Source of the DNA: a virus
Strand: one strand, 5' to 3'
DNA: 64,000 nt
Virus record (IMG/VR): IMGVR_UViG_3300022562_001652
Coordinates: 49,816-113,815 of that record
A model generated the notes under the pieces. The model saw only the letters and a list, made by a program, of their open reading frames with translations, searched no databases and was not told where the DNA came from. The translations under genes were made by a program, and so were the position numbers. This document shows, in pieces, positions 49,992 to 60,116 of the stretch (positions are counted from its first letter, which is position 1; every line of letters starts with the position of its first letter).

Positions 49992-50204
49992 ATGATGAGC
50001 AACGAAAAAATCCTGCCACACGGGTTCCTTTTGTTCATGGCCCTGACGGTAATCGCGTCTGTCTTCCTTTCTGGCGTCTCCGTCAAGATCGCTTTCGATC
50101 AAGAAAATCGTTCGACGCCCAAGCTCTATGATCTAGAAGTTCGCGTCACGCGAATCGAGGAGGCATGCATGCGAAGCAGCTTCGTTCCTAAGGAGAAGCA
50201 ATGA
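49992..50204 (+). CDS. small single-span membrane protein
   Basis: 70 residues (ATG 49992 or 49995). One membrane segment about residues 11-33 (GFLLFMALTVIASVFLSGVS), then a periplasmic or cytoplasmic charged helix (YDLEVRVTRIEEACM). Function unknown. ATGA overlap into the next gene. Confidence 0.55.
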   Translation: MMSNEKILPHGFLLFMALTVIASVFLSGVSVKIAFDQENRSTPKLYDLEVRVTRIEEACMRSSFVPKEKQ

Positions 50205-50551
50205 CTCCTGAAGAAGCGGTAGAGGCTCACAACAAGTACAGCGACGAGCTGCAGGAAGTCACGGCTCAACGCGACGAGCTTCGTGCCGAAGTCGAGCGTC
50301 TAAGAGGTATCTGCGACCACCAGCGTTACACCCTGTACTTCCTCGAAGGAACAGAGGACGGCGAAGAGCTCCATGCTTGTGACGCTCGCTATGAAGAGGT
50401 GGAAACTCTCAAGAAAGAGAACGAGCGTCTACGCAGAATGGAGCAGGTCGTTCTCGAATGGTGGTCGGCGGACCTGTCATTACCTCGCGTGCGACATGCT
50501 CTCCGAGAAAGAATGGCGGCGTGCGTGGAAGAGGCTAAGAGGACGCCATGA
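50201..50551 (+). CDS. coiled-coil protein
   Basis: 116 residues with a strong coiled coil at about 8-38 (DELQEVTAQRDELRAEVERL) and a second short one around 66-80. Begins MTPEEAVEAHNKYSDELQ. Similar in style to the next two genes, which may be distant relatives. ATGA overlap at both ends. Confidence 0.55.
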   Translation: MTPEEAVEAHNKYSDELQEVTAQRDELRAEVERLRGICDHQRYTLYFLEGTEDGEELHACDARYEEVETLKKENERLRRMEQVVLEWWSADLSLPRVRHALRERMAACVEEAKRTP

Positions 50552-50919
50552 GCACCGACCATCCGGACCACCTGGAGAGACTGCTGGCCGCGTGGCCTGA
50601 GCGTGACCTCACGGTCTATCCTCTCAGTGAGGACGACTGGATCGTGTACCATGGCAGAGCCACTGAAGGAGGCATGCGCAAGGATTTGTCTCGCATGAAC
50701 GAGGCACAGGCCCGTCTCATCGCCGCCGCCATCAACGCCCTGCCCGAACTGATCGCGCGGGTGCGGGTCGCGGAGATGACACTGGCCGAACTCAGGGAGT
50801 GGACGCACCAGCACGGGCGCGCGCTGTGTCCACCGGGCGCGGACGCGTACGGCGAGGGCATGCGCGACGCAAAGGCGCAGGTCGACAGGCTGCTGGCCGC
50901 GCGCGGAGACACGCCATGA
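50548..50919 (+). CDS. hypothetical protein, mosaic composition
   Basis: 123 residues. Phrases such as DDWIVYHGRATEGG, MNEAQARLIAAAINALPELI and RVRVAEMTLAELREW are typical of small phage proteins that list residues for an ADE-like helix after a beta hairpin. The last two thirds are strikingly more GC-rich than the first, so a recombination joint around 50,700 is possible. Function unknown. Confidence 0.55.
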   Translation: MSTDHPDHLERLLAAWPERDLTVYPLSEDDWIVYHGRATEGGMRKDLSRMNEAQARLIAAAINALPELIARVRVAEMTLAELREWTHQHGRALCPPGADAYGEGMRDAKAQVDRLLAARGDTP

Positions 50920-51347
50920 CCAGCGAGGAGCGCGAGCGGCTGCGGGCGCGGGCCACTGAGGCGGTGGCGCTGGATTCGGGGGGTCGTGTCGGCGTTCTGC
51001 CAGGCGACCTCGTCGATCTCCTGGACGCCGACGAGGCGCGCGAGCGGGCAGAGGCTGAGTTGGTTGCTCTCCGAGCCGACCTCCGCGCTGAGGACAAGGA
51101 GAGCGAGCACCTGGGCGCCGGTCCCTACCGCAGGATGGCCGGCCGGTACCTCGACGAGATCGACCGTCTCCGCGCCGAGTTGGCCCGCGCCCACGAGCTC
51201 GAGGAGGCGACGCTGGCATACGAGGACGCCAGGGGCGACACAGAGGGGCACGGCGGGTCGCCCATGGAGGCGCTCGAGGAGTGGCTGTCCCGGGCGGTCG
51301 CCGCCAGCCGCGCGGCCCGGGCCAAACGAGGAGGCACCGATGAGTGA
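50916..51347 (+). CDS. GC-rich coiled-coil protein
   Basis: 143 residues, Ala/Arg/Glu-rich (EERERLRARATEAVALDSGG, EARERAEAELVALRADLRAE). Helical throughout, with GPYRRMAGRYLDEIDRLRAE. Third position GC is very high compared with the genes before 50.5 kb. ATGA overlap at the start. Unknown function. Confidence 0.55.
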   Translation: MTSEERERLRARATEAVALDSGGRVGVLPGDLVDLLDADEARERAEAELVALRADLRAEDKESEHLGAGPYRRMAGRYLDEIDRLRAELARAHELEEATLAYEDARGDTEGHGGSPMEALEEWLSRAVAASRAARAKRGGTDE

Positions 51348-51552
51348 GCGTATCGTGTCGCCGTGGACGTATCACACGGTCCCCAGTCGGCAGGGGAGGC
51401 GCCGATTCAATTCACGCCAGCGACGGTATCTGGACAGGGTGAGAGAGGCGCTTGCTGACAGTTCAGCGCACGAACTGACGCCGCAGGAATACATGTGCTG
51501 CCTGGATGAGATTCGGGCAATGGTGGAGGCGATGGATGCGGCCGGCGAGTGA
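51340..51552 (+). CDS. small hypothetical protein
   Basis: 70 residues from ATG 51340, overlapping the previous gene by eight bases with GAGGAGGCACCG as ribosome site. Arg-rich N-terminal part (GRRRFNSRQRRYLDRVREAL) and an acidic C-terminal helix. Unknown function. Confidence 0.5.
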   Translation: MSERIVSPWTYHTVPSRQGRRRFNSRQRRYLDRVREALADSSAHELTPQEYMCCLDEIRAMVEAMDAAGE

Positions 51553-51802
51553 GTGGACGCAGCGCGCCTACGATCGGTGCGGTGTCGAAGGACCACAGAT
51601 AGGCGTGAAACGCGTTCTGGAGGAGGAATTCGCTGCCGCCCAGGCCGACGCGTTGGAGCACGCGGCGGCGCTGGTGTTCGACGCGGTCGCCGATTGGCTG
51701 CGCGTGGCACCCGACGACGCGGCGCTCGACGGTTGTGGACGCGTGCTCCTGGCCGAGCTCCGCGCCGAGGCCGCCAAGCTGCGAGGGGGAGGCGAGGGGT
51801 GA
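51536..51802 (+). CDS. small helical protein
   Basis: 88 residues from ATG 51536 (GGAGG six bases upstream), overlapping the previous gene by 17 bases. MRPASEWTQRAYDRCGVEG is followed by an Ala-rich helix bundle. Ends in a GTGA overlap. Unknown function. Confidence 0.5.
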   Translation: MRPASEWTQRAYDRCGVEGPQIGVKRVLEEEFAAAQADALEHAAALVFDAVADWLRVAPDDAALDGCGRVLLAELRAEAAKLRGGGEG

Positions 51803-51921
51803 GCAAGCGCTACTTGGTCGAACAGCAGGCGTGGCCCGATCGAATCTGCGATGGTTCGGGGTCGCATTGGTACCCGAGAGCCGGGGCAGGACCGGCCGCC
51901 GTCCCCGAGGAGGAGGAGTAG
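51799..51921 (+). CDS. very small hypothetical protein
   Basis: 40 residues from GTG overlapping the previous stop; GGGGGAGG upstream. Sequence begins MSKRYLVEQQAWPDRI and ends in an acidic PEEEE tail. Accepted on coupling only. Confidence 0.4.
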   Translation: MSKRYLVEQQAWPDRICDGSGSHWYPRAGAGPAAVPEEEE

Positions 51922-51923
51922 AC

Positions 51924-52082
51924 ATGGCCTTCAATTGCACAACCTGTGGCAGAGGTGAGGACCGCTGCCGGTCATGCCAGCGCGACGGCCGCCGGGTGCG
52001 GCACAGTGAGCGGGTCCTGGCTCGCGTCCGAGTCCCGGGCGGGGTCAGATGGGAATGGGAGTGCGAGTGCGGTTCGCAATGA
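51924..52082 (+). CDS. small zinc-ribbon protein
   Basis: 52 residues: CTTCGRGEDRCRSCQRDGRR then CECGSQ at the end. Four to six Cys give one or two metal sites. Located two bases after the preceding stop; ribosome site GAGGAGGAG. Confidence 0.55.
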   Translation: MAFNCTTCGRGEDRCRSCQRDGRRVRHSERVLARVRVPGGVRWEWECECGSQ

Positions 52083-52177
52083 GCGTGCTTATCGACGACG
52101 AGCACGCGATCGCGGACGCGGACAAGGAGGCAACCCATGGGACTGTTCGACCGACAGCCGTTCCCGAGGAGGGGTAG
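52079..52177 (+). CDS. possible 32-residue peptide
   Basis: ATG overlaps the preceding stop (ATGA). MSVLIDDEHAIADADKEATH and an acidic end. A second short frame at 52137 with a better ribosome site (AAGGAGG) overlaps it. The stretch 52,100-52,280 looks like eroded small-gene remnants. Confidence 0.3.
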   Translation: MSVLIDDEHAIADADKEATHGTVRPTAVPEEG

Positions 52178-52287
52178 GACATGGGATACCCGATGAGCTA
52201 CGCTCGAGACTAGCGCAGACGAAGGCCACGTTTTTTTCGACCGTCCGCCCTCCCTCCCTCGACAACGCTGCGCTGGATGCGCAGAAC

Positions 52288-52479
52288 ATGTCTGAGAAGG
52301 AGAAGGCAGTACCCGACCTTTCTAGCCTCCGAGTACGCCAGACTTCCCTAGTCCCCCTAGAGCGGGATAAAGACGACGGCACCACGGAGCGGGTTCTGTA
52401 CTGGCTGATAGGGGACGAGGTCTACGTGCACCCGCACCGTTGGCCAGAGTTCCTCCTCCTGGTGAACGGCGCCCCGTAG
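52288..52479 (+). CDS. small hypothetical protein
   Basis: 63 residues from ATG 52288. MSEKEKAVPDLSSLRVRQTS, then ERVLYWLIGDEVYVHPHRWP. No strong ribosome site; the frame is open further upstream. The last gene before a long noncoding stretch. Confidence 0.45.
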   Translation: MSEKEKAVPDLSSLRVRQTSLVPLERDKDDGTTERVLYWLIGDEVYVHPHRWPEFLLLVNGAP

Positions 52480-52853
52480 CTCCACATATAAAGGAGGAGC
52501 TCCACAAGCGGAGGATAGTTCAAAAAAACCCTCCCAAAAAAAAACAAAAAAACGAGCGGGATGCCTAGCACCGCGATACCCCCTTCCCCGGCCTTTTTTT
52601 CCGTGGTTCACCTTACCGATCCCACGCCTTCCCTAGACCCCACTCCACAGACCACGTCAACCCCTACTCACACGGCGTACGGGGCTTGCCCATGCTTGGC
52701 GTGCGCTCCTGGTTCGCCGCGATCACAGCAGGCGCAGCAAGGGGTCCAACGGGCCTGCTGACGGCCGATCTCGATCACCGGGCCATAGGCGGACACGGCA
52801 GGTGAGCACGGCCTCACAAGCCCTGTGAGGGGCCTTCTACGCGGTGTGTGGAT

Positions 52854-52965
52854 GGACCAGGAGGGTTACCCCTAGGCCACGTCTATCCCCTCTCACAAGC
52901 TCTGTGAGAGGACCAGGAGGGTTACCCCTAGGCCACGTCTATCCCCTCTCACAAGCTCTGTGAGA
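52854..52965 (+). repeat. 56-base perfect tandem repeat
   Basis: Copies at 52854-52909 and 52910-52965 are identical as read. Each contains GGTTACCCCTAGG and a hairpin CTCTCAC-AAGCTCT-GTGAGAG. The duplication is recent by its identity. Confidence 0.85.
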
Positions 52966-52975
52966 GGGGATAGAC
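52937..52975 (+). terminator. 16-bp perfect hairpin
   Basis: GTCTATCCCCTCTCAC (52937-52952) pairs fully with GTGAGAGGGGATAGAC (52960-52975) across a seven-base loop AAGCTCT. No T-run follows, so it is either a non-canonical terminator or a processing or protein-binding site. Confidence 0.4.
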
Positions 52976-53292
52976 GGGACACAGGAGTACGATCCCACAG
53001 GGCTTGCGCTCCTGGCGACCGGGCATCGCCGGTGTGGTGAAAACCAGCATGTCGGATTTTACCGTAGTGAAAACCCACAGCAGTGTAGGAAAACCCCACG
53101 ATCCAGGCCCCGGATCGGCGGGATCCGGGGTAGCGGGATGCTACCCGCCCCTAGTGTTTCTGGCCACTTAGGCGTTTTTCCCCTTCCCCAGGGTACTCTG
53201 GCCGGGTTGCTGCATCGTGATCCGGCGAGGCGAAATACGCCTGCTTGCGCCGCTTGCGAGGCTGACGTGGTCAGCCGGAAAGCACCGTCCGA

Positions 53293-53580
53293 ATGGACGA
53301 AACACCACTCCCCTACCCTGGGGACGGCGGGAAATGGTTCCCGTGTGTCCTCTGGTATCGGGGAGTGGTTTGGAGGTTTCCTATGTTCGCTGGATCCCTT
53401 GACGGACGGCTCTTTATTGGGACCTTGGACGACATCATCGACGCGCTCTTTGCGTCGACGATGCCGTCGCCAAGGTTCCGGTCCTTTTCATTCGATATCG
53501 CTTTGGCCACTGACCCTGACGGTGTAGTGACCGTCAGGGCTATCTGTGCCCGTACGGGCACAACCCTTCTAACCCTGTGA
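53293..53580 (+). CDS. hypothetical protein
   Basis: 95 residues: MDETPLPYPGDGGKWFPCVL, a WRFPMFAGSLDGRLFIGTLD hairpin-like part, and a beta C-terminus ending AICARTGTTLLTL. Weak ribosome site. The opposite strand also has a long frame, but this one shows a plausible globular composition. Unknown function. Confidence 0.5.
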   Translation: MDETPLPYPGDGGKWFPCVLWYRGVVWRFPMFAGSLDGRLFIGTLDDIIDALFASTMPSPRFRSFSFDIALATDPDGVVTVRAICARTGTTLLTL

Positions 53581-53591
53581 GAGGAGAAACC

Positions 53592-53993
53592 ATGAGCGAA
53601 GAAAACAAGATCGAAGGTCAGACTGTCGTGGAGAAGGCTCCGCGCAATCGACGCGAAAGGCGGGAAATGGAGCAGAGCAAGGGGAGTGGTGGTCGTGGTC
53701 AGGATCAGGCCGTGGCCAAGGTCGATGACGTCGACGTCCTGGCCAGCGCGACGGCGGCGATCACTGCACACGCCAACATCGACGCGGAAATCTTCGCGTC
53801 GTTTTCCCCGCTGTACGCCACCCTGGCCAAGGTGGATGTCGCGCTGGCCAGCGCGACGGAAGAAACCCGGCCAACCCTGGAGTTGACGCGAGCCCGCGTG
53901 ATGGATCAGCTCCAGGCTCGTAAGGACGGCGCCGCCCGTGCCTTCCGTGGTCTGTACCGCGACATCATGGTCAAGCACACCGGCGGCAAGTAG
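53592..53993 (+). CDS. hypothetical protein, helical
   Basis: 133 residues, ATG 53592 after GAGAGGAGAAACC. Charged N-terminus (RNRRERREMEQSKGSGGRGQ) then an Ala-rich helical domain (ASATAAITAHANIDAEIFAS, LARVD-like repeats KVDVALASATEE). The ribosome site lies within a GTGAGAG stretch like those in the repeats of 52.9 kb. Function unknown. Confidence 0.6.
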   Translation: MSEENKIEGQTVVEKAPRNRRERREMEQSKGSGGRGQDQAVAKVDDVDVLASATAAITAHANIDAEIFASFSPLYATLAKVDVALASATEETRPTLELTRARVMDQLQARKDGAARAFRGLYRDIMVKHTGGK

Positions 53994-54002
53994 GTCTCCC
54001 CG

Positions 54003-54072
54003 CCCGATCCCACGGGATCGGGCCATCATCTCTCACACCGTGTGAATCTGTGCCCACACGGTGTGAGAGATG
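54003..54072 (+). promoter_or_regulatory. two perfect hairpins before a gene
   Basis: First hairpin CCCGATCC-CACG-GGATCGGG (54003-54022), then CATCTCTCACACCGTGTG (54027-54044) pairing fully with CACACGGTGTGAGAGATG (54055-54072). The second includes an ATG at its end, 13 bases before the likely start of the next gene. It could be a terminator, an RNase site or a translation control element. Confidence 0.5.
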
Positions 54073-54084
54073 AGGGAAAACGGG

Positions 54085-54897
54085 ATGAGCAAGCTAGACA
54101 AAGCCTATCGGCTTGAGAGCACCTTGCGTGCGCTCACCGGTACGCTGGATCCGCTGGCGGATCCGCTTTATGACTGCAAGGTCCGGGCTATCCTGGACCT
54201 TGCGGGCGTTGCCCTGCCGTCAGAGTACGACGGCAACGGCGCTATCCGCGTCGTCGACGCGCCCGACGCCAAGGTCCCGTATCGTCGCAACCCGACGGTA
54301 CGGGTGACCTGGCGTGGTGTCCCGTCGGGTCTCGCGACGGTCAAGGATGCGCGTGGTGTCCCGACCGTTCAGGTTGCCTCGCAAGGTGAGGTTACCCACG
54401 GCAATCTCGACCCTCGGATCGAGATTGCCGACCTTAGCCGGCGCAAGGCGCTAGCTCGGGAAGCAATCCGCAAGGCATGGTGCAGGTTGTCTGCACATGC
54501 CAAGCGTAGGATCCGTCGAGCGCTGGCGTCGGGTCAGGTCGCGCTGGCTAGACCTGCTAGCGCGACCTTGGTTGTGCCCGATCGCTGGCCAGCGCTGGCC
54601 GTTCTCGGTCGCATCGTGGCCAGCGTGGCGGTACGCGCAGCAAGGGACGCGCGTACCGCCAGCGTGGCGTCAACCTACGCCGCGCACAACGTCGAGGCGC
54701 CTAGGCCAGCGGTTTCCCGCCAGCCTAAGACGATCTTTCGCGTCGACGGGGAATTCGTTGGCCCACTCCGGCAGGATGCCAAGGTCGGGCATCCCGCCAA
54801 GGTCGGTCGACTGGCTGACCGTGTGCCTTGTACCGAGTGTGGGACAGGAACACGGCACCCGTCGCGACTGTGCGGCGAATGCCTGAAAGGGGAGTGA
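54085..54897 (+). CDS. hypothetical protein with C-terminal zinc ribbon
   Basis: 270 residues from ATG 54085 (GAGGGAAAACGGG upstream); an ATG at 54070 lies in the hairpin. A helical N-terminal part is followed by a basic segment (SRRKALAREAIRKAWCRLSA, HAKRRIRRALASG) and a C-terminal CTECGTGTRHPSRLCGECLK zinc ribbon. DNA contains many short CCAGCGCTGG palindromes. The basic helices plus zinc ribbon suggest nucleic-acid binding. Unknown family. Confidence 0.6.
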   Translation: MSKLDKAYRLESTLRALTGTLDPLADPLYDCKVRAILDLAGVALPSEYDGNGAIRVVDAPDAKVPYRRNPTVRVTWRGVPSGLATVKDARGVPTVQVASQGEVTHGNLDPRIEIADLSRRKALAREAIRKAWCRLSAHAKRRIRRALASGQVALARPASATLVVPDRWPALAVLGRIVASVAVRAARDARTASVASTYAAHNVEAPRPAVSRQPKTIFRVDGEFVGPLRQDAKVGHPAKVGRLADRVPCTECGTGTRHPSRLCGECLKGE

Positions 54898-54900
54898 AAC

Positions 54901-55113
54901 ATGCGAACCATCAAGATGGCACGTTACCCACTGGCCAGCGCTGTGCTGGCCTACGTGGAGACCCGCGCGGATTCTCGCGCGGCCCACTTTTGGAATCGCC
55001 TTGTCGACCACGCGCACGCGATGATCGCGTGCGACTTCGTCGAGGAGGGAGACATGGACGCGGCGTGGGGCTGCGTCGCGTCCCTTCATGGAGAGCTCGG
55101 GGTGGCAGCGTGA
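54901..55113 (+). CDS. small hypothetical protein
   Basis: 70 residues, ATG after GGGGAGTGAAAC. Helical (YPLASAVLAYVETRADSRAA, FVEEGDMDAAWGCVASLHGE). Ends in GTGA overlap with the next tiny gene. Function unknown. Confidence 0.55.
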   Translation: MRTIKMARYPLASAVLAYVETRADSRAAHFWNRLVDHAHAMIACDFVEEGDMDAAWGCVASLHGELGVAA

Positions 55114-55199
55114 CGATCCACGTCACGCTTTCGTGGCCGGTCGTGGCCGCTTTGTGCGCCGCGATCGTCCTCTGGGCCCTGATCCGGCGCAAGCGCTAA
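55110..55199 (+). CDS. 29-residue membrane peptide
   Basis: GTG overlapping the preceding stop. MTIHVTLSWPVVAALCAAIV then LWALIRRKR: one membrane helix and a basic tail, the plan of small phage membrane peptides. Too short for family assignment. Confidence 0.5.
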   Translation: MTIHVTLSWPVVAALCAAIVLWALIRRKR

Positions 55200-55268
55200 A
55201 AGCTGCGCCGCTACTGCGCCGGCCTAGCGGCGAGCGTAGGCTGAAAAGCTGCGCCGCTACTGCGCCGG
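55198..55268 (+). repeat. 25-base direct repeat
   Basis: AAAAGCTGCGCCGCTACTGC plus five more bases occurs at 55198-55222 and again at 55244-55268, period 46. It lies between the membrane peptide gene and the first tRNA-like element. Confidence 0.75.
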
Positions 55269-55274
55269 TGTTTC

Positions 55275-55326
55275 CCCTACGGGTGGTCCGTAGTGCGCTC
55301 GGGTTCGATTCCCGAGGTAGGGGCCA
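55275..55326 (+). ncRNA. tRNA-like element 1 (acceptor and T-arm only)
   Basis: T-arm TCGGG-TTCGATT-CCCGA (55299-55315), acceptor strand GGTAGGG, discriminator G and encoded CCA (55324-55326). Six bases of the opposite acceptor strand (CCCTAC, 55275-55280) lie only 18 bases before the T-arm, so D and anticodon arms are missing. Not a normal tRNA; either a remnant or a minihelix. Confidence 0.45.
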
Positions 55327-55387
55327 AAAAGCGCGTGTCAGATCGGCACGCGCTAGTGCGTCTAAAAGACGCAAAAGGAGACATACC

Positions 55388-55954
55388 ATGACCAAGCACG
55401 TCATCGTTTCGCGTCATCCCGCCGCCGTGTCTTTCATCCGGGCCGAGTGCCCGGAATTCGCGGACGCGGAAGTGCTCGCGTCCGCCACGGCGGAACAGGT
55501 CCGCGACGCGATCATCGCAGGCAACCTGCCACTTCACCTCGCGGTGGAAGCCCGCGAGGTCTGGGCCGTGGAGTTCGCCGGCTCCGCGCCGCGTGGGGCC
55601 GAGTATGGCCTCGATGAAATGCGCGCGGCGGGGGCGCGCATCGCGAAGTACGCGGTAGCGCACCGGTCGTGCGCCGGTTCGGGATACGAGCACCACGATC
55701 CGTGCTCGTTCCTGGCTTCGGAGCACGTGGTCGACACGCAAACCGAGGAGCGTGTCCCGGTTTGCGTTTGGCATCAGGCCCGGTGTCTTTCCGCAAAGCG
55801 GTACCGGAAGGTTGCGGGTCCCGACGATCCCCAGCCGGATGGGGCTGTATGGGCCCCGTACGGCTGGAACGATGGATGGTATCGGTGGGATTGGATGTAC
55901 CACCTTCCCACCGGGCCGGATGATCGACCGCAACCCACATCCCCACGGCCGTAG
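55388..55954 (+). CDS. Csx16-family (Cas_VVA1548) protein with zinc-like C-terminus
   Basis: 188 residues from ATG 55388 with AAAGGAG upstream. Residues 1-92 follow the Csx16 pattern: VIVSRHPAAVSFI, then AIIAGNLPLHLAVEA, then PRGAEYGLDEMRAAGARIAK and YAV. Csx16 is a CRISPR ancillary family near type III systems, and from memory members were reported to degrade cyclic oligoadenylate (ring nuclease). No cas genes are here, so a phage anti-CRISPR or anti-CBASS role is plausible. The C-terminal 95 residues are Cys/His/Trp-rich (CAGSGYEHHDPC, PVCVWHQARC) and unusual for the family. Confidence 0.75.
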   Translation: MTKHVIVSRHPAAVSFIRAECPEFADAEVLASATAEQVRDAIIAGNLPLHLAVEAREVWAVEFAGSAPRGAEYGLDEMRAAGARIAKYAVAHRSCAGSGYEHHDPCSFLASEHVVDTQTEERVPVCVWHQARCLSAKRYRKVAGPDDPQPDGAVWAPYGWNDGWYRWDWMYHLPTGPDDRPQPTSPRP

Positions 55955-55969
55955 GACCTGTGGGCCATC

Positions 55970-56030
55970 CCCTACGGATGGATCCGCCCGTTTCTGCGGG
56001 TGTCGGGTTCGATTCCCGATGTAGGGGCCA
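55970..56030 (+). ncRNA. tRNA-like element 2, D-arm-less
   Basis: Acceptor CCCTACG (55970-55976) pairs with TGTAGGG (56020-56026); T-arm TCGGG-TTCGATT-CCCGA (56003-56019); G then CCA (56028-56030). Only 26 bases lie between acceptor and T-arm, holding GCCCG-TTTCTG-CGGGT, a possible small anticodon-like hairpin. The D-arm is missing. It lies just upstream of the P-loop kinase gene. Confidence 0.45.
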
Positions 56031-56044
56031 ACAGGAGGAGACGA

Positions 56045-56506
56045 ATGGAGATGATCATCCTCCGGGGCCTGCCCGGCTCCGGGAAAAGCCACTACGCCGC
56101 GCAGTTTGCGGCGAACGAACCAACGAAGAAAGTCGTCGTCGCGTCAGCCGACGACTTCTTCATGACCCCGAACGGGTACCGGTTCGACCCGTTCAAGCTG
56201 ACGGCGGCGCACGCAAGCTGCTTCCGCCGCGTGCTCAACGCATTGGAAGCGGACGTCGACGACATGGTGTTCGTCGACAACACGAACTCCACGGCGTGGG
56301 AGATGTCGCCATACGTGATGTTGGCGAACGTGTTCGATGTGCCCTTCGTCGTCTTCAGGATCGAGTGTGATCCTGAAGTTGCGTACGCACGGCAACGCCA
56401 CGGCGTTCCGCGCGAGACGTTCGATGCGATCGGCCGCCGACTCGCCACGGAGTGGATCCCTCCGTGGTGGGTACAACGAAGTGCGCCGGTAATGCGCCGG
56501 AGGTAG
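56045..56506 (+). CDS. P-loop kinase (AAA_33/polynucleotide-kinase-like)
   Basis: 153 residues from ATG 56045 after GGAGGAGACGA. Walker A GLPGSGKS (8-15), then VVASADDFFM, VFVDNTNSTAWEM and VPFVVFRIECDPEVAYARQR. These match the AAA_33 or zeta-toxin-like/5'-kinase group of small P-loop kinases that act on nucleic acid ends or nucleotides. It lies between tRNA-like elements, so RNA end repair is conceivable, but no ligase is adjacent. Confidence 0.75.
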   Translation: MEMIILRGLPGSGKSHYAAQFAANEPTKKVVVASADDFFMTPNGYRFDPFKLTAAHASCFRRVLNALEADVDDMVFVDNTNSTAWEMSPYVMLANVFDVPFVVFRIECDPEVAYARQRHGVPRETFDAIGRRLATEWIPPWWVQRSAPVMRRR

Positions 56507-56508
56507 CC

Positions 56509-56727
56509 ATGGAAGACAAGATTCGGGAGATCCGTGAGCGGGTGCGCCTGCGGCGCAAGGATGCTGAGATCGCCAGTTTCAAGGCTGGCGATCCGGTGTC
56601 CTACCGCCGCCGGGGCATGCTCCATTTCGGAGCGATCCTCTCGATCGAGGATGGGATCGCCAAGGTGTCCGCTTCCGGTGGTGGGTACAACGAGGTACCC
56701 ACCACCATGCTCAGACCCTCCAGGTAG
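56509..56727 (+). CDS. small hypothetical protein
   Basis: 72 residues. Charged helix (DKIREIRERVRLRRKDAEIA) followed by a small beta barrel (FKAGDPVSYRRRGMLHFGAI, IAKVSASGGGYNEV) reminiscent of KOW/SH3-type folds. Starts two bases after the kinase stop. Unknown function. Confidence 0.55.
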   Translation: MEDKIREIRERVRLRRKDAEIASFKAGDPVSYRRRGMLHFGAILSIEDGIAKVSASGGGYNEVPTTMLRPSR

Positions 56728-56975
56728 AAGGTAGAAAGGAGAAACCGATGCACTGGCCGTAGGACGATCCTTTGGTGCGTTCCAACTAATGGCGACACAC
56801 CGGGATGTGCCTAAGCGCACTGTTCAGTCCCGGAACAAGTCTAGGAGACCGGCATGACTTGGATTAACGCGTGACCGCGAAGTACCGTCGAACGTAGAGA
56901 CGTGCGTCTATCGACGGGCGCGGATAAGCCGTAACGTCTGACGAGCAGGTCAAAACTGTTCAACCGGGCTCGTCG

Positions 56976-57112
56976 CCCACGCCGTGGAAAGCGGCGGGTA
57001 GTGCCTGATCCACAATGTATGTCTTTGTGTTGTGAACAGAAGCGCGCTCTGTCACCCCAAGACTCGTTGGTGGTTCGGAACGAGAGCGGTTCGACTCCGC
57101 TCCGTGGGCCCA
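56976..57112 (+). ncRNA. tRNA-like element 3, expanded body
   Basis: T-arm AGCGG-TTCGACT-CCGCT (57085-57101), acceptor strand CCGTGGG, discriminator C, encoded CCA (57110-57112). The 5' strand CCCACGC starts at 56976, so the element is 137 bases. Between lie a short D-like hairpin (GGC-GGGTAGT-GCC), CACAA/TTGTG, an 8-bp bulged stem closed by AGCGCGC, and CTCGTT/AACGAG. No acceptable anticodon arm was found; a tRNA with an insertion or a tmRNA-like domain are options. Confidence 0.4.
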
Positions 57113-57301
57113 AGGAAAAGCTGAGAGGTGCCCGGGTGGCTCCGGGCTAGTCGGGGTGTCTATTTCCCCGATGAACAAGCGGACTAAGCTACCGCAAAAA
57201 AAGGCCCTCGCCCTGGATCGGGCCGCCGCCGGTGAGCGGCGATAGCTGAGGACGCAGAGGGGTTCGCCCCGGTGAAGGCGGATCTCGGCTCTCACCACCT
57301 T

Positions 57302-57345
57302 GCGCAGGAGGGGTTTGTAGGCGAGTTCGACTCTCGCCCTGCGCC
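57302..57345 (+). ncRNA. tRNA-like element 4, minihelix
   Basis: GCGCAGG (57302-57308) pairs perfectly with CCTGCGC (57338-57344) around a T-arm GCGAG-TTCGACT-CTCGC (57321-57337). Only 12 bases separate acceptor and T-arm and CCA is not encoded. The 5-bp T stem and 7-bp acceptor are perfect. Confidence 0.4.
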
Positions 57346-57361
57346 CTAAAAGGAGACAAAG

Positions 57362-57604
57362 ATGGCACGCAAGTGCAAATGCCACGAAAGAGTACGTCAG
57401 GCCATGGATCGTGGAATGGGCTTCCACGAAGCCTACGCTAAGTACGGACGACCTGGGTACCACGAGCACAGGTGTGAGTGTCCCTGCGGATGCAAGCAAG
57501 ACACACTGGGGTACGCATACTGTCCTTACTGCCATTTCGAGCATGCGGAAAGGCGTGGCGAAGTGATCGGGATCCTCGGGCTCCCCTTCAAGAAGAAGGA
57601 TTAA
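57362..57604 (+). CDS. cysteine/histidine-rich small protein
   Basis: 80 residues, ATG after AAAAGGAGACAAAG. Many metal ligands: CKCHERVRQAMDRGMGFHEA, HEHRCECPCGCKQD, YCPYCHFEH. Probably two zinc sites. Directly after the structured RNA region. Function unknown. Confidence 0.6.
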   Translation: MARKCKCHERVRQAMDRGMGFHEAYAKYGRPGYHEHRCECPCGCKQDTLGYAYCPYCHFEHAERRGEVIGILGLPFKKKD

Positions 57605-57798
57605 TGCCCACCACGAAGAAGAAGAAGAAGAGCAGCAGGCAGCTGCTGCTTCTGAGCTGGCGCTGTGCCAATTGCAGGAAACTCGTATCCGCTTTCGTGC
57701 GGACGAAGGGCGATCGGGGGCGCGCATGCCTGCGGCTGTTTCCGCGCCACAATTGCGCCGCTGCTGCGCCCGCTGAAGCTTCTACAGGAGGAAAGTGA
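57604..57798 (+). CDS. small basic zinc-knuckle protein
   Basis: 64 residues, TAATG overlap with the previous gene. Lys-rich N-terminus (MPTTKKKKKSSRQL) and WRCANCRKLVSAFVRTKGDR with further Cys. Possibly RNA-binding. Confidence 0.5.
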   Translation: MPTTKKKKKSSRQLLLLSWRCANCRKLVSAFVRTKGDRGRACLRLFPRHNCAAAAPAEASTGGK

Positions 57799-57800
57799 AG

Positions 57801-58004
57801 ATGAACGTTCACGTGATCGAGATCTCTGATGAAGAGGCGTGGATCCTCGCGGTGCGGGCTCGCGTTGCTCTCGGGGCCTCTCTCGAAGAAGCAGCCTCTA
57901 TCACGAAGAGAAACGCTCCAGAGCTCGCCGCCCGCGTTCTGGATCGCATCGGTAGCTGGCCATCTAGCTACCTTGAGCTGCGGGCGCTGCAGGAGCTACC
58001 ATGA
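57801..58004 (+). CDS. small hypothetical protein
   Basis: 67 residues from ATG 57801 after AGGAGGAAAGTGAAG. MNVHVIEISDEEAWILAVRA, then an Ala-rich helix (LGASLEEAASITKRNAPELA). Unknown function. Confidence 0.55.
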   Translation: MNVHVIEISDEEAWILAVRARVALGASLEEAASITKRNAPELAARVLDRIGSWPSSYLELRALQELP

Positions 58005-58447
58005 AGGACGAGGGAATCAGAATCAGCCCCAAGCACGGGCTGAACCCAGCTATCCCCAAATGCTTCTACTGCCTGCAGAACAAGAACGAGATCATCCTGG
58101 CAGGCATGATGAAGCCGCTCTCAGGCAAAGGGCGAAACGCCAAGCCTGCGGAGTACGACCCCCAGGCCCCGCAGGGAATGGTCTGGGACAAGGTGCCATG
58201 CTGCGAGTGCGCCGGCTTCATGGAGAAGGGAATCATCCTGATCAGCGCGCTCGACTCTGAAGAGGGAAGCGATAACCCGTACCGCACCGGGGGGTGGGTC
58301 GTGGTCACCGACGGCTTCATCCGTCGCTTGCTCGGCGACACGCCCCTGTGTGAGGACATTTTGAAGAGGCGCGTGGCTTTCCTGCCAGACAAGGTGTGGG
58401 ATCAGATCGGCCTGCCGCGCGGCGAGAAAGAAGAAGAGGGGACATGA
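58001..58447 (+). CDS. conserved phage-type zinc protein
   Basis: 148 residues. CFYCLQNKNEIILAG near the N-terminus and VPCCECAGFMEKGIILISAL in the middle form a split CxxC/CxxC zinc site in an alpha/beta domain. Proteins with this CFYC...CxxC plan occur widely in large phages and bacilli without known function. ATGA overlap at start. Confidence 0.65.
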   Translation: MKDEGIRISPKHGLNPAIPKCFYCLQNKNEIILAGMMKPLSGKGRNAKPAEYDPQAPQGMVWDKVPCCECAGFMEKGIILISALDSEEGSDNPYRTGGWVVVTDGFIRRLLGDTPLCEDILKRRVAFLPDKVWDQIGLPRGEKEEEGT

Positions 58448-58668
58448 AGTCGACAGAAGAGAGACTGCGCACCGCCATTCAGAAGCTCCGGGAAGAGATC
58501 TTCGATCTGGAGCTTGCCCTGCATCAGGAAGGTTTTTGGACAGGCATACTTGTCTCCGCCGTCGAAGTAGAGGCCGCTGCTCACGAGACAGCGAACATCG
58601 TTCGCCGTCGGCTGGATCTGGACAAGAAGCGCGACGAAAATCTCAGTTTCATGGAAAGGAAGGGATAG
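58444..58668 (+). CDS. small helical protein
   Basis: 74 residues; two charged helices (STEERLRTAIQKLREEIFDL and TANIVRRRLDLDKKRDENLS). ATGA overlap with the previous gene and two bases before the GHKL ATPase. Unknown. Confidence 0.55.
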   Translation: MKSTEERLRTAIQKLREEIFDLELALHQEGFWTGILVSAVEVEAAAHETANIVRRRLDLDKKRDENLSFMERKG

Positions 58669-58670
58669 AA

Positions 58671-60116
58671 ATGGCCGTCTTCGAAGCGAGCCCCGAAGGT
58701 TTCCGCGCCCAGAACATGGGCCGTCCGCCCGCGCATCTGGTGCGCGAGCTCATCCAGAATGCCTTTGACGAGGAAGCGTCCGTCGTCAAGGTGTTCATCA
58801 AGTGGACGCCGAAGCGTGGCGTCCAGCTGCGCGTCACAGACGATGTCCCCGGCGGCATCCGCGACGAGCGTCTGGTCTTCACGATCTGGGAGACGGACAA
58901 GGCCGATTCTCCGACGAAGCGTGGGCGCATGGGCCGTGGCCTCAAGGAGGTCGTGTCGGTCTCAGACCGCACGATCGTGTCGACGCAGGGAAGAAACGCG
59001 ACGGTCTTCGAACGCGTCGCCGACGGCGACTGGAAACGCTATACCTCGAACAAGTTCCCACCGCCGACACAGGGAACTGTCGTCGAGGCCAAGATCAAGT
59101 CGTGGAAACAGAAGGACGTCGACGACGTCGTCGAGTACCTGCGCCACATCCGCGCTCCGAATCACATGATGTTCTACGTGAACGATGAGTGGATCCGCGC
59201 TGCTCCTGCGCTGGAAGAATACGAAATGTACCTTCCCTCCGTGACCTTCGTGACCGAAGAGGGCGAACGCCGCGTGAGCAACCGCAGCTTCAACACCAAG
59301 GTCCAGCTCTTTCACGAAGCTGAGAGCTGGGTCTACGAGATGGGGTTGCCGATCGAGAAGATCGAATTTCCCATGTCGATCGACGTCGGGCAGCGCGTGC
59401 CGTTGAGAGAGCAGCGGGACACTCTCACCAAGAACTACAGAGACGAGCTCTTCGCGAAGCTGGTGAGCAGACGGATCGACGTGATCCCGTCCGAAGAGCT
59501 CAAAGACAACTACGTGCTCAATGCGGCGAGCTACGGCTTTCTCATGAGCGACGCTGCACAGAAGAAGATCGCGGATGCCTGGACAGAAGGCAAGCCGTAT
59601 GCCGCAACCCCCACCATGATGTCCGTCGCGACGGGTGCCCACATCCCCGTGGTGAACCTGCGCACGCTGCCTGAGGCGATTCGCGAGCTCGTCAAGCGGG
59701 TCGGATCCGATGTGAAGGAAGTCATCCGCTCACGCAAGGAAGCGGCGACCTCGACATCCCAACTCACGGCGTCTCATCGACGCCTCATCCAGGCTTGGGA
59801 GTGGCTCGCCGAGAAGATCGGTCGCCCAGTCTTCGTCCGAATCATGGACGGTAGCGTGTCGTCACGGGCGGACTTCAGCCCGGAATCTCGCGTCCTCACT
59901 CTCTATCGAGAGGTCGCAGGCGACGCCTTCTTCTCGGAGCCGTTTGGAGCCGAGCAACTCGGCCTGTTCATCCACGAGGTCTCACACTGGTCCCGCCGTG
60001 AAAACCAGCACGGTCTCGACTTCGTCTCGGACGCGGAGAAGGTGGGAGGGCAGGTCGCCAGCGTCTTCCTGAAGAGTTTCAGCGAGGCTCACGAAGTGCT
60101 TCGTTCTGTGCAATGA
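58671..60116 (+). CDS. GHKL ATPase fused to HExxH metallo domain
   Basis: 481 residues from ATG 58671. The N-terminal 200 residues have a GHKL (Hsp90/MutL/histidine kinase) ATP site: N-box HLVRELIQNAFDEEA with Asn30, TDDVPGG in place of DxGxG (Asp57, Gly61-62), and RGRMGRGLKEV as the glycine lid. The middle is helical. The C-terminal 60 residues have GLFIHEVSHWSRRENQHG (His435, Glu436, His439, candidate third ligand His447 or Glu456), a zinc-metallopeptidase motif. The fusion suggests an ATP-gated protease or chaperone. Not a classical histidine kinase because no H-box or receiver is present. Confidence 0.75.
   Translation: MAVFEASPEGFRAQNMGRPPAHLVRELIQNAFDEEASVVKVFIKWTPKRGVQLRVTDDVPGGIRDERLVFTIWETDKADSPTKRGRMGRGLKEVVSVSDRTIVSTQGRNATVFERVADGDWKRYTSNKFPPPTQGTVVEAKIKSWKQKDVDDVVEYLRHIRAPNHMMFYVNDEWIRAAPALEEYEMYLPSVTFVTEEGERRVSNRSFNTKVQLFHEAESWVYEMGLPIEKIEFPMSIDVGQRVPLREQRDTLTKNYRDELFAKLVSRRIDVIPSEELKDNYVLNAASYGFLMSDAAQKKIADAWTEGKPYAATPTMMSVATGAHIPVVNLRTLPEAIRELVKRVGSDVKEVIRSRKEAATSTSQLTASHRRLIQAWEWLAEKIGRPVFVRIMDGSVSSRADFSPESRVLTLYREVAGDAFFSEPFGAEQLGLFIHEVSHWSRRENQHGLDFVSDAEKVGGQVASVFLKSFSEAHEVLRSVQ

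Follow-up and report, generated by a model that had tools for sequence, protein, structure and literature searches.

Results and discussion

A Csx16-like gene in a contractile-tailed phage

The stretch of DNA analyzed here (the window) comprises 64,000 nucleotides of the IMG/VR virus record IMGVR_UViG_3300022562_001652, which has a total length of 113,815 bases. At the locus of interest, a Shine-Dalgarno sequence lies 7 nt ahead of the ATG of a gene whose product consists of an N-terminal Csx16 domain and a C-terminal extension, and the gene is flanked by two tRNA-like elements in direct orientation (Table 1).

Table 1. Features of the Csx16-like locus, in coordinates of the window
Feature	Coordinates	Strand	Basis
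tRNA-like remnant 1 with acceptor end, T arm and CCA, ahead of the Csx16 gene	55275..55326	+	sequence, T-arm scan
Shine-Dalgarno sequence AAGGAG	55375..55380	+	read from sequence
Csx16-like gene, 188 aa	55388..55954	+	ORF, Pfam and PADLOC matches, upstream Shine-Dalgarno sequence
Csx16 (Cas_VVA1548) domain, residues 1-92	55388..55663	+	PF09652 match, coding-frame codon signal, AlphaFold2 model
C-terminal extension, residues 93-188, orphan	55664..55951	+	no relative found; low pLDDT; 0.079 probability of openness by chance
tRNA-like element 2, downstream of the Csx16 gene	55970..56030	+	scan, fold, alignment

An earlier note on this DNA had recognized Csx16 motifs in the first 92 residues and had proposed a Pfam search against Cas_VVA1548. 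The protein matched this profile (PF09652) at an E value of 7.7e-8 and 32.9 bits, above the curated cut-off of 25 bits, with residues 6-90 aligned to positions 2-90 of the 91 in the profile. PF09652 was the sole family matched in a Pfam search up to E 10, and the PADLOC Csx16 model matched as well (E 5.6e-8); NCBIfam and PHROGs searched with the protein gave no match. Because these matches coincide with codon usage that agrees with the read frame across residues 1-92, the motif reading was right. The family motifs R-H, G-x-L-P-x-x-L-A and R-G-x-E were all found in the phage protein, and those quoted in the earlier note proved to be the most conserved columns in an alignment of 49 viral and cellular Csx16 sequences. 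Within this alignment H10, G45 and P48 are identical in all 49 sequences, and R9 (47/49), R69 (46/49) and G70 (47/49) are nearly so. The phage protein thus shares with Csx16 the profile, the conserved residues and a domain of about 90 residues, at roughly 26-36% identity to CRISPR-linked cellular members.

The first and last 144 bases of the record are identical, a direct terminal repeat which suggests a complete genome. Portal, major head, tail sheath and baseplate wedge proteins are encoded, and the record is that of a contractile-tailed phage. Its head protein shares about 30-34% identity with the counterpart in SPO1-like phages of Bacillus and others; only distant relatives were found for its polymerase, and the records matched include Thermus phages. 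It had been stated that no cas genes or CRISPR array are nearby, and this held: type III RAMP genes were absent from the whole record, and no CRISPR-like regularly spaced repeats were present near the gene. A repeat cluster 47 kb before the window was rejected as a CRISPR array, as it consists of 15-base units inside an ORF. Unlike cellular Csx16, which is usually associated with a type III CRISPR locus (published phage members do not need this association), the phage gene has no type III CRISPR genes nearby; given the structural genes, the terminal repeats and the missing RAMP genes and array, it is virus-encoded and lies outside a CRISPR locus, as would be expected of the anti-CRISPR class. 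G+C content is 60-65% at positions 50000-60000 of the window, compared to 54-60% in its first 50 kb, and this segment, Csx16 gene included, may be an acquired accessory region.

Viral and cellular relatives

Csx16 has previously been reported in 2 of 28,114 phage genomes (Hoikkala et al., PMC12409355); the viral protein itself was not assayed there. Single-protein searches of viral and phage collections with P0001 returned no relatives because the homologues are too diverged, and alignment-based patterns recovered homologues where these searches had failed (an alignment of eight sequences was too diverse to serve as a query). Two alignment-based scans identified Csx16 genes in 26 further distinct IMG/VR contigs, which is a lower bound because the scans require a short conserved stretch, and which includes the near-duplicates L014/L015, L057/L061 and L054/L055/L058. 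In the phage collection, Csx16 matches were confined to a single virus, Methanobacterium virus Drs3, which is present as two records, and queries with P0001 and L019 found no Csx16. Drs3 likewise carries a viral Csx16 outside a CRISPR locus, but its protein has 103 aa, belongs to an archaeal virus and sits in another part of the tree.

RAMP genes were found in none of the 27 viral records with Csx16 (this phage counted), as opposed to 14 of the 16 cellular genomes with Csx16, where csx16 is several times located within a few kilobases of RAMP genes (e.g., L038 and L044). Among the cellular genomes, RAMP genes were missing from a Lokiarchaeota contig (L033) and from a short Armatimonadota contig (L032); the latter groups inside the viral Csx16 lineage and may be viral. 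Terminase (phrog_2) was detected in 13 of the first 19 viral records and in 2 of the later 8, and portal (phrog_12) in 2 more, this phage being one of them, so that 17 of the 27 carry one or the other hallmark and the viral status of the remaining records rests on their IMG/VR classification.

A tree of 41 sequences places the phage protein in a group of 13 rows, comprising 12 viral sequences and L032, with support of 99/97. The viral lineage was recovered again with 49 sequences (19 rows), at a lower support of 92/67; in this set, 18 named rows as a single clade were not rejected (p-AU 0.217), which is no proof of a clade. The tree shows strong clustering of the viral and cellular labels, with 4 changes against about 16 expected by shuffling. 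Membership of the phage protein in a mainly viral Csx16 lineage is therefore strongly supported by the 41-sequence tree and more weakly by the larger one. This lineage has a residue pattern of its own (GN-[LIV]-PL, VEF and PPRGxEY), which sets the phage protein apart from other Csx16. Viral Csx16 as a whole has had multiple origins or has been exchanged, because Drs3, L031 and others sit elsewhere in the tree.

Plasmid Csx16 genes, too, occur without cas genes among their listed neighbors. Two plasmid proteins seemingly contain two Csx16-like units in tandem: one in Allomeiothermus pMESIL02 (L009, 1507-2292), beside a conjugation gene, and one in Paenibacillus pSC2 (L011, 1228-1776), in which the N-terminal unit is degenerate. 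These tandem proteins are possible plasmid anti-CRISPRs.

Predicted structure of the Csx16 domain

Plasmid rows were left out for structure prediction. The Csx16 domain was modeled by AlphaFold2 with a mean pLDDT of 94 and a pTM of 0.84. The model has strands at residues 4-7, 28-30, 42-45, 57-62 and 84-89 with helices in between, an alternating beta/alpha arrangement. R9-H10, G45-P48 and R69-G70 are located just after strands, and in the model these conserved stretches would occupy the positions where Rossmann-like folds bind ligands. Foldseek comparison with the PDB and viral models produced nothing significant (best E ~0.1-0.2), so a fold link to CARF or AcrIII-1 was left unconfirmed. AcrIII-1 entries appeared at E ~1 only, and matches to CheY-like, BRCT and DHH folds were rejected with E values all above 0.1. 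Profile matches in the PDB were to designed proteins, mostly ankyrin repeats, and were considered spurious, being repeated weak matches to G-x-x-PLHLA.

The C-terminal extension

The phage protein further differs from Csx16 in its C-terminal extension of 96 residues, which begins with a Cys/His stretch (residues 95-133) and continues with a Trp-rich and then a Pro/Asp-rich part. All 96 codons are open and encode C95, H102, H103, C106, H113, C126, H129 and C133 along with six Trp. The claim that this tail is not part of the family was correct, although variable tails are common in the viral lineage. Tails of other members are unrelated: they span some 130 residues in L017 and some 150 in L032, and are almost absent in others; that of L014 has a DnaJ-like cysteine motif, a weak match below cut-off. 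Family databases, the PDB, phages, plasmids and viral contigs yielded no relatives of the tail; searching the last three with the tail on its own gave chance-level matches only, which were rejected. The tail therefore appears to be phage-specific as far as is visible.

Whatever the protein does, there is a real possibility, somewhat short of probable, that the tail holds no functional domain and is either a chance-open frame in G+C-rich DNA or a tail that drifts after a Csx16 domain complete in itself. Besides the missing homologue and the unrelated or nearly absent tails elsewhere in the lineage, its codon scores are all negative with no frame preferred, of the two remaining forward frames one is open throughout and the other almost throughout, and the probability of an open frame in shuffled sequence is 0.079. 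In the full-length AlphaFold2 model, pLDDT of the tail is mostly 32-60, with hints of a hairpin (113-115 and 122-124) and a helix (125-134) at about 50. On the other side, the position-2 GC of the tail reaches its minimum in the read frame, which is also the case for coding sequence, and the frame fills the gene, its stop lying 15 nt before the downstream tRNA-like element, which fits a genuine gene end. In addition, C126-x2-H129-x3-C133 and the spaced Cys/His residues that precede it resemble a treble-clef zinc site and could form one. Of the "novel Cys/His domain" proposed earlier, a plausible zinc-ligand pattern is thus retained, while the homology searches, codon scores, model confidence and chance of openness lend a domain no support. 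Our guess is that the tail is probably translated but is dispensable or serves in targeting, perhaps as a small zinc finger.

Proposed function

A cellular Csx16 degraded cA4 completely in EDTA buffer and did not cut cA6 (Hoikkala et al., PMC12409355). It kept its cA4 specificity at a tenfold higher concentration, and remained specific where Csx20 also cut cA3 (PMC12409355). Since cellular Csx16 is by experiment a cA4-specific ring nuclease, the phage protein is best read as a viral ring nuclease dampening type III CRISPR signaling, and we consider it probable that it degrades cA4 and thereby weakens type III CRISPR immunity. The link between Csx16 and cyclic oligoadenylate degradation, cited in the earlier note, has now been published for the cellular protein (PMC12409355).

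It is hypothesized that the phage protein is made during infection and most likely dimerizes. The loops R9-H10, G45-L47-P48 and R69-G70, each placed where a strand ends and on the presumed ligand-binding edge of a Rossmann-like sheet, would bind cA4, which would be cut to linear products without metal. With cA4 removed, the cA4-activated effectors of the host would stay off and type III CRISPR immunity would be weakened. Binding and cleavage of cA4 by the phage protein are proposed by analogy to the tested cellular relative, and a benefit to the phage would follow from this logic and from the precedents of AcrIII-1 and AcrIII-2, which are treated in PMC12751052 and are the only two viral cA4 ring nucleases described so far. 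AcrIII-1 (Crn2 family) resembles the phage protein in proposed role and substrate, and a published DALI comparison has linked Csx16 with a viral homologue of Crn2 (PMC12409355). It is a separate sequence family, however, with no Pfam match from the phage protein and no significant Foldseek match; moreover, it is contested whether native AcrIII-1 acts as an anti-CRISPR (Martinez-Alvarez et al. 2025, cited in PMC12751052). AcrIII-2 likewise represents viral cA4 degradation as counter-defense and is also kin to a CRISPR-locus protein (PMC12751052), but it has a SAVED fold and 230 aa, and the Pfam search gave no sequence relation to the phage protein.

The ring nuclease kind is itself already known; what is new are the viral Csx16 relatives, which form a lineage with variable tails. 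This lineage of about 13 to 19 sequences, with the conserved residues intact, offers small, testable proteins for phage escape from type III CRISPR and is an example of a defense-system regulator shared with viruses. A rather unlikely extension is that the lineage represents a distinct, widespread third class of viral ring nuclease whose members recruit differing tails, the one found here binding zinc through its Cys/His residues and providing an additional function, for example by directing the protein to the host Cas10 complex.

Among other functions, it is unlikely that the phage protein is a sponge which binds cA4 and hardly cleaves it, a role put forward for Csx15, a protein similar to ring nucleases. 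Csx15 binds cA4 well and cleaves it very slowly (PMC13148439), and the viral lineage has diverged from CRISPR-linked Csx16; yet the conserved residues match those of the cellular family, in which catalysis has been demonstrated for a member (PMC12409355), and a sponge has been argued to be ineffective against the large amounts of cA4 made by type III systems (PMC13148439). Action on another cyclic nucleotide, such as a signal of CBASS or another defense, by an anti-CBASS protein or broad phosphodiesterase, is decidedly unlikely. The phage setting without CRISPR would suit it, and the lineage-specific residues could signal a shifted specificity, but the reading is weak because the tested Csx16 is cA4-specific and leaves cA6 uncut. 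Of the two functions guessed in the earlier note, the anti-type III one is accordingly the better supported by homology, and the anti-CBASS one is weakened. In a last, scarcely credible alternative, the record would derive from a cell or a decayed prophage, and the gene would be a CRISPR ring nuclease of the host. This alternative, suggested by the typically cellular and CRISPR-linked occurrence of Csx16, is refuted, barring assembly error, by the structural genes and terminal repeats, the lack of RAMP genes in the record and of an array near the gene, and the viral origin of the closest relatives.

Neighboring elements and genes

The two tRNA-like elements around the Csx16 gene have a common T arm (TCGGGTTCGATTCCCGA) and acceptor end (GTAGGGGCCA), and neither was called by ARAGORN or Rfam. 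In the folding analysis, element 2 gave a miniature cloverleaf with a CCA end, about 60 nt in length (z -2.19); the folding of remnant 1 was no better than that of many shuffles. Possibly, the Csx16 gene is a cassette that sits between two copies of a tRNA remnant. Two further T-arm-like sequences, each with an acceptor-like end, occur between downstream genes, at 57085-57113 and 57299-57348 (GAGCGGTTCGACTCCGCTC and GGCGAGTTCGACTCTCGCC), and tRNA-like debris seems to separate several genes in the region. In L003 (17026-17101), ARAGORN called a tRNA with anticodon TTA, a possible UAA suppressor that adjoins a tRNA-Ile.

Just upstream of the Csx16 gene is an exact 25-base direct repeat (55198-55222 and 55244-55268), and a 58-base direct repeat with 56-base spacing occurs at 52.9 kb (52854-52911 and 52910-52967). 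The downstream gene at 56045-56506 encodes a protein resembling P-loop kinases (AAA_33; PHROG annotations "ATPase" and "polynucleotide kinase"), which might, speculatively, repair cut tRNA as another counter-defense theme. Its PADLOC match to CARF_PDDEXK_AAA was rejected as a link to CARF, as it covers the P-loop part only, a part that AAA_33 matches as well. Further downstream, at 58668-60116, a GHKL/HSP90-like ATPase protein is encoded that has a partial PADLOC match to TmtA.
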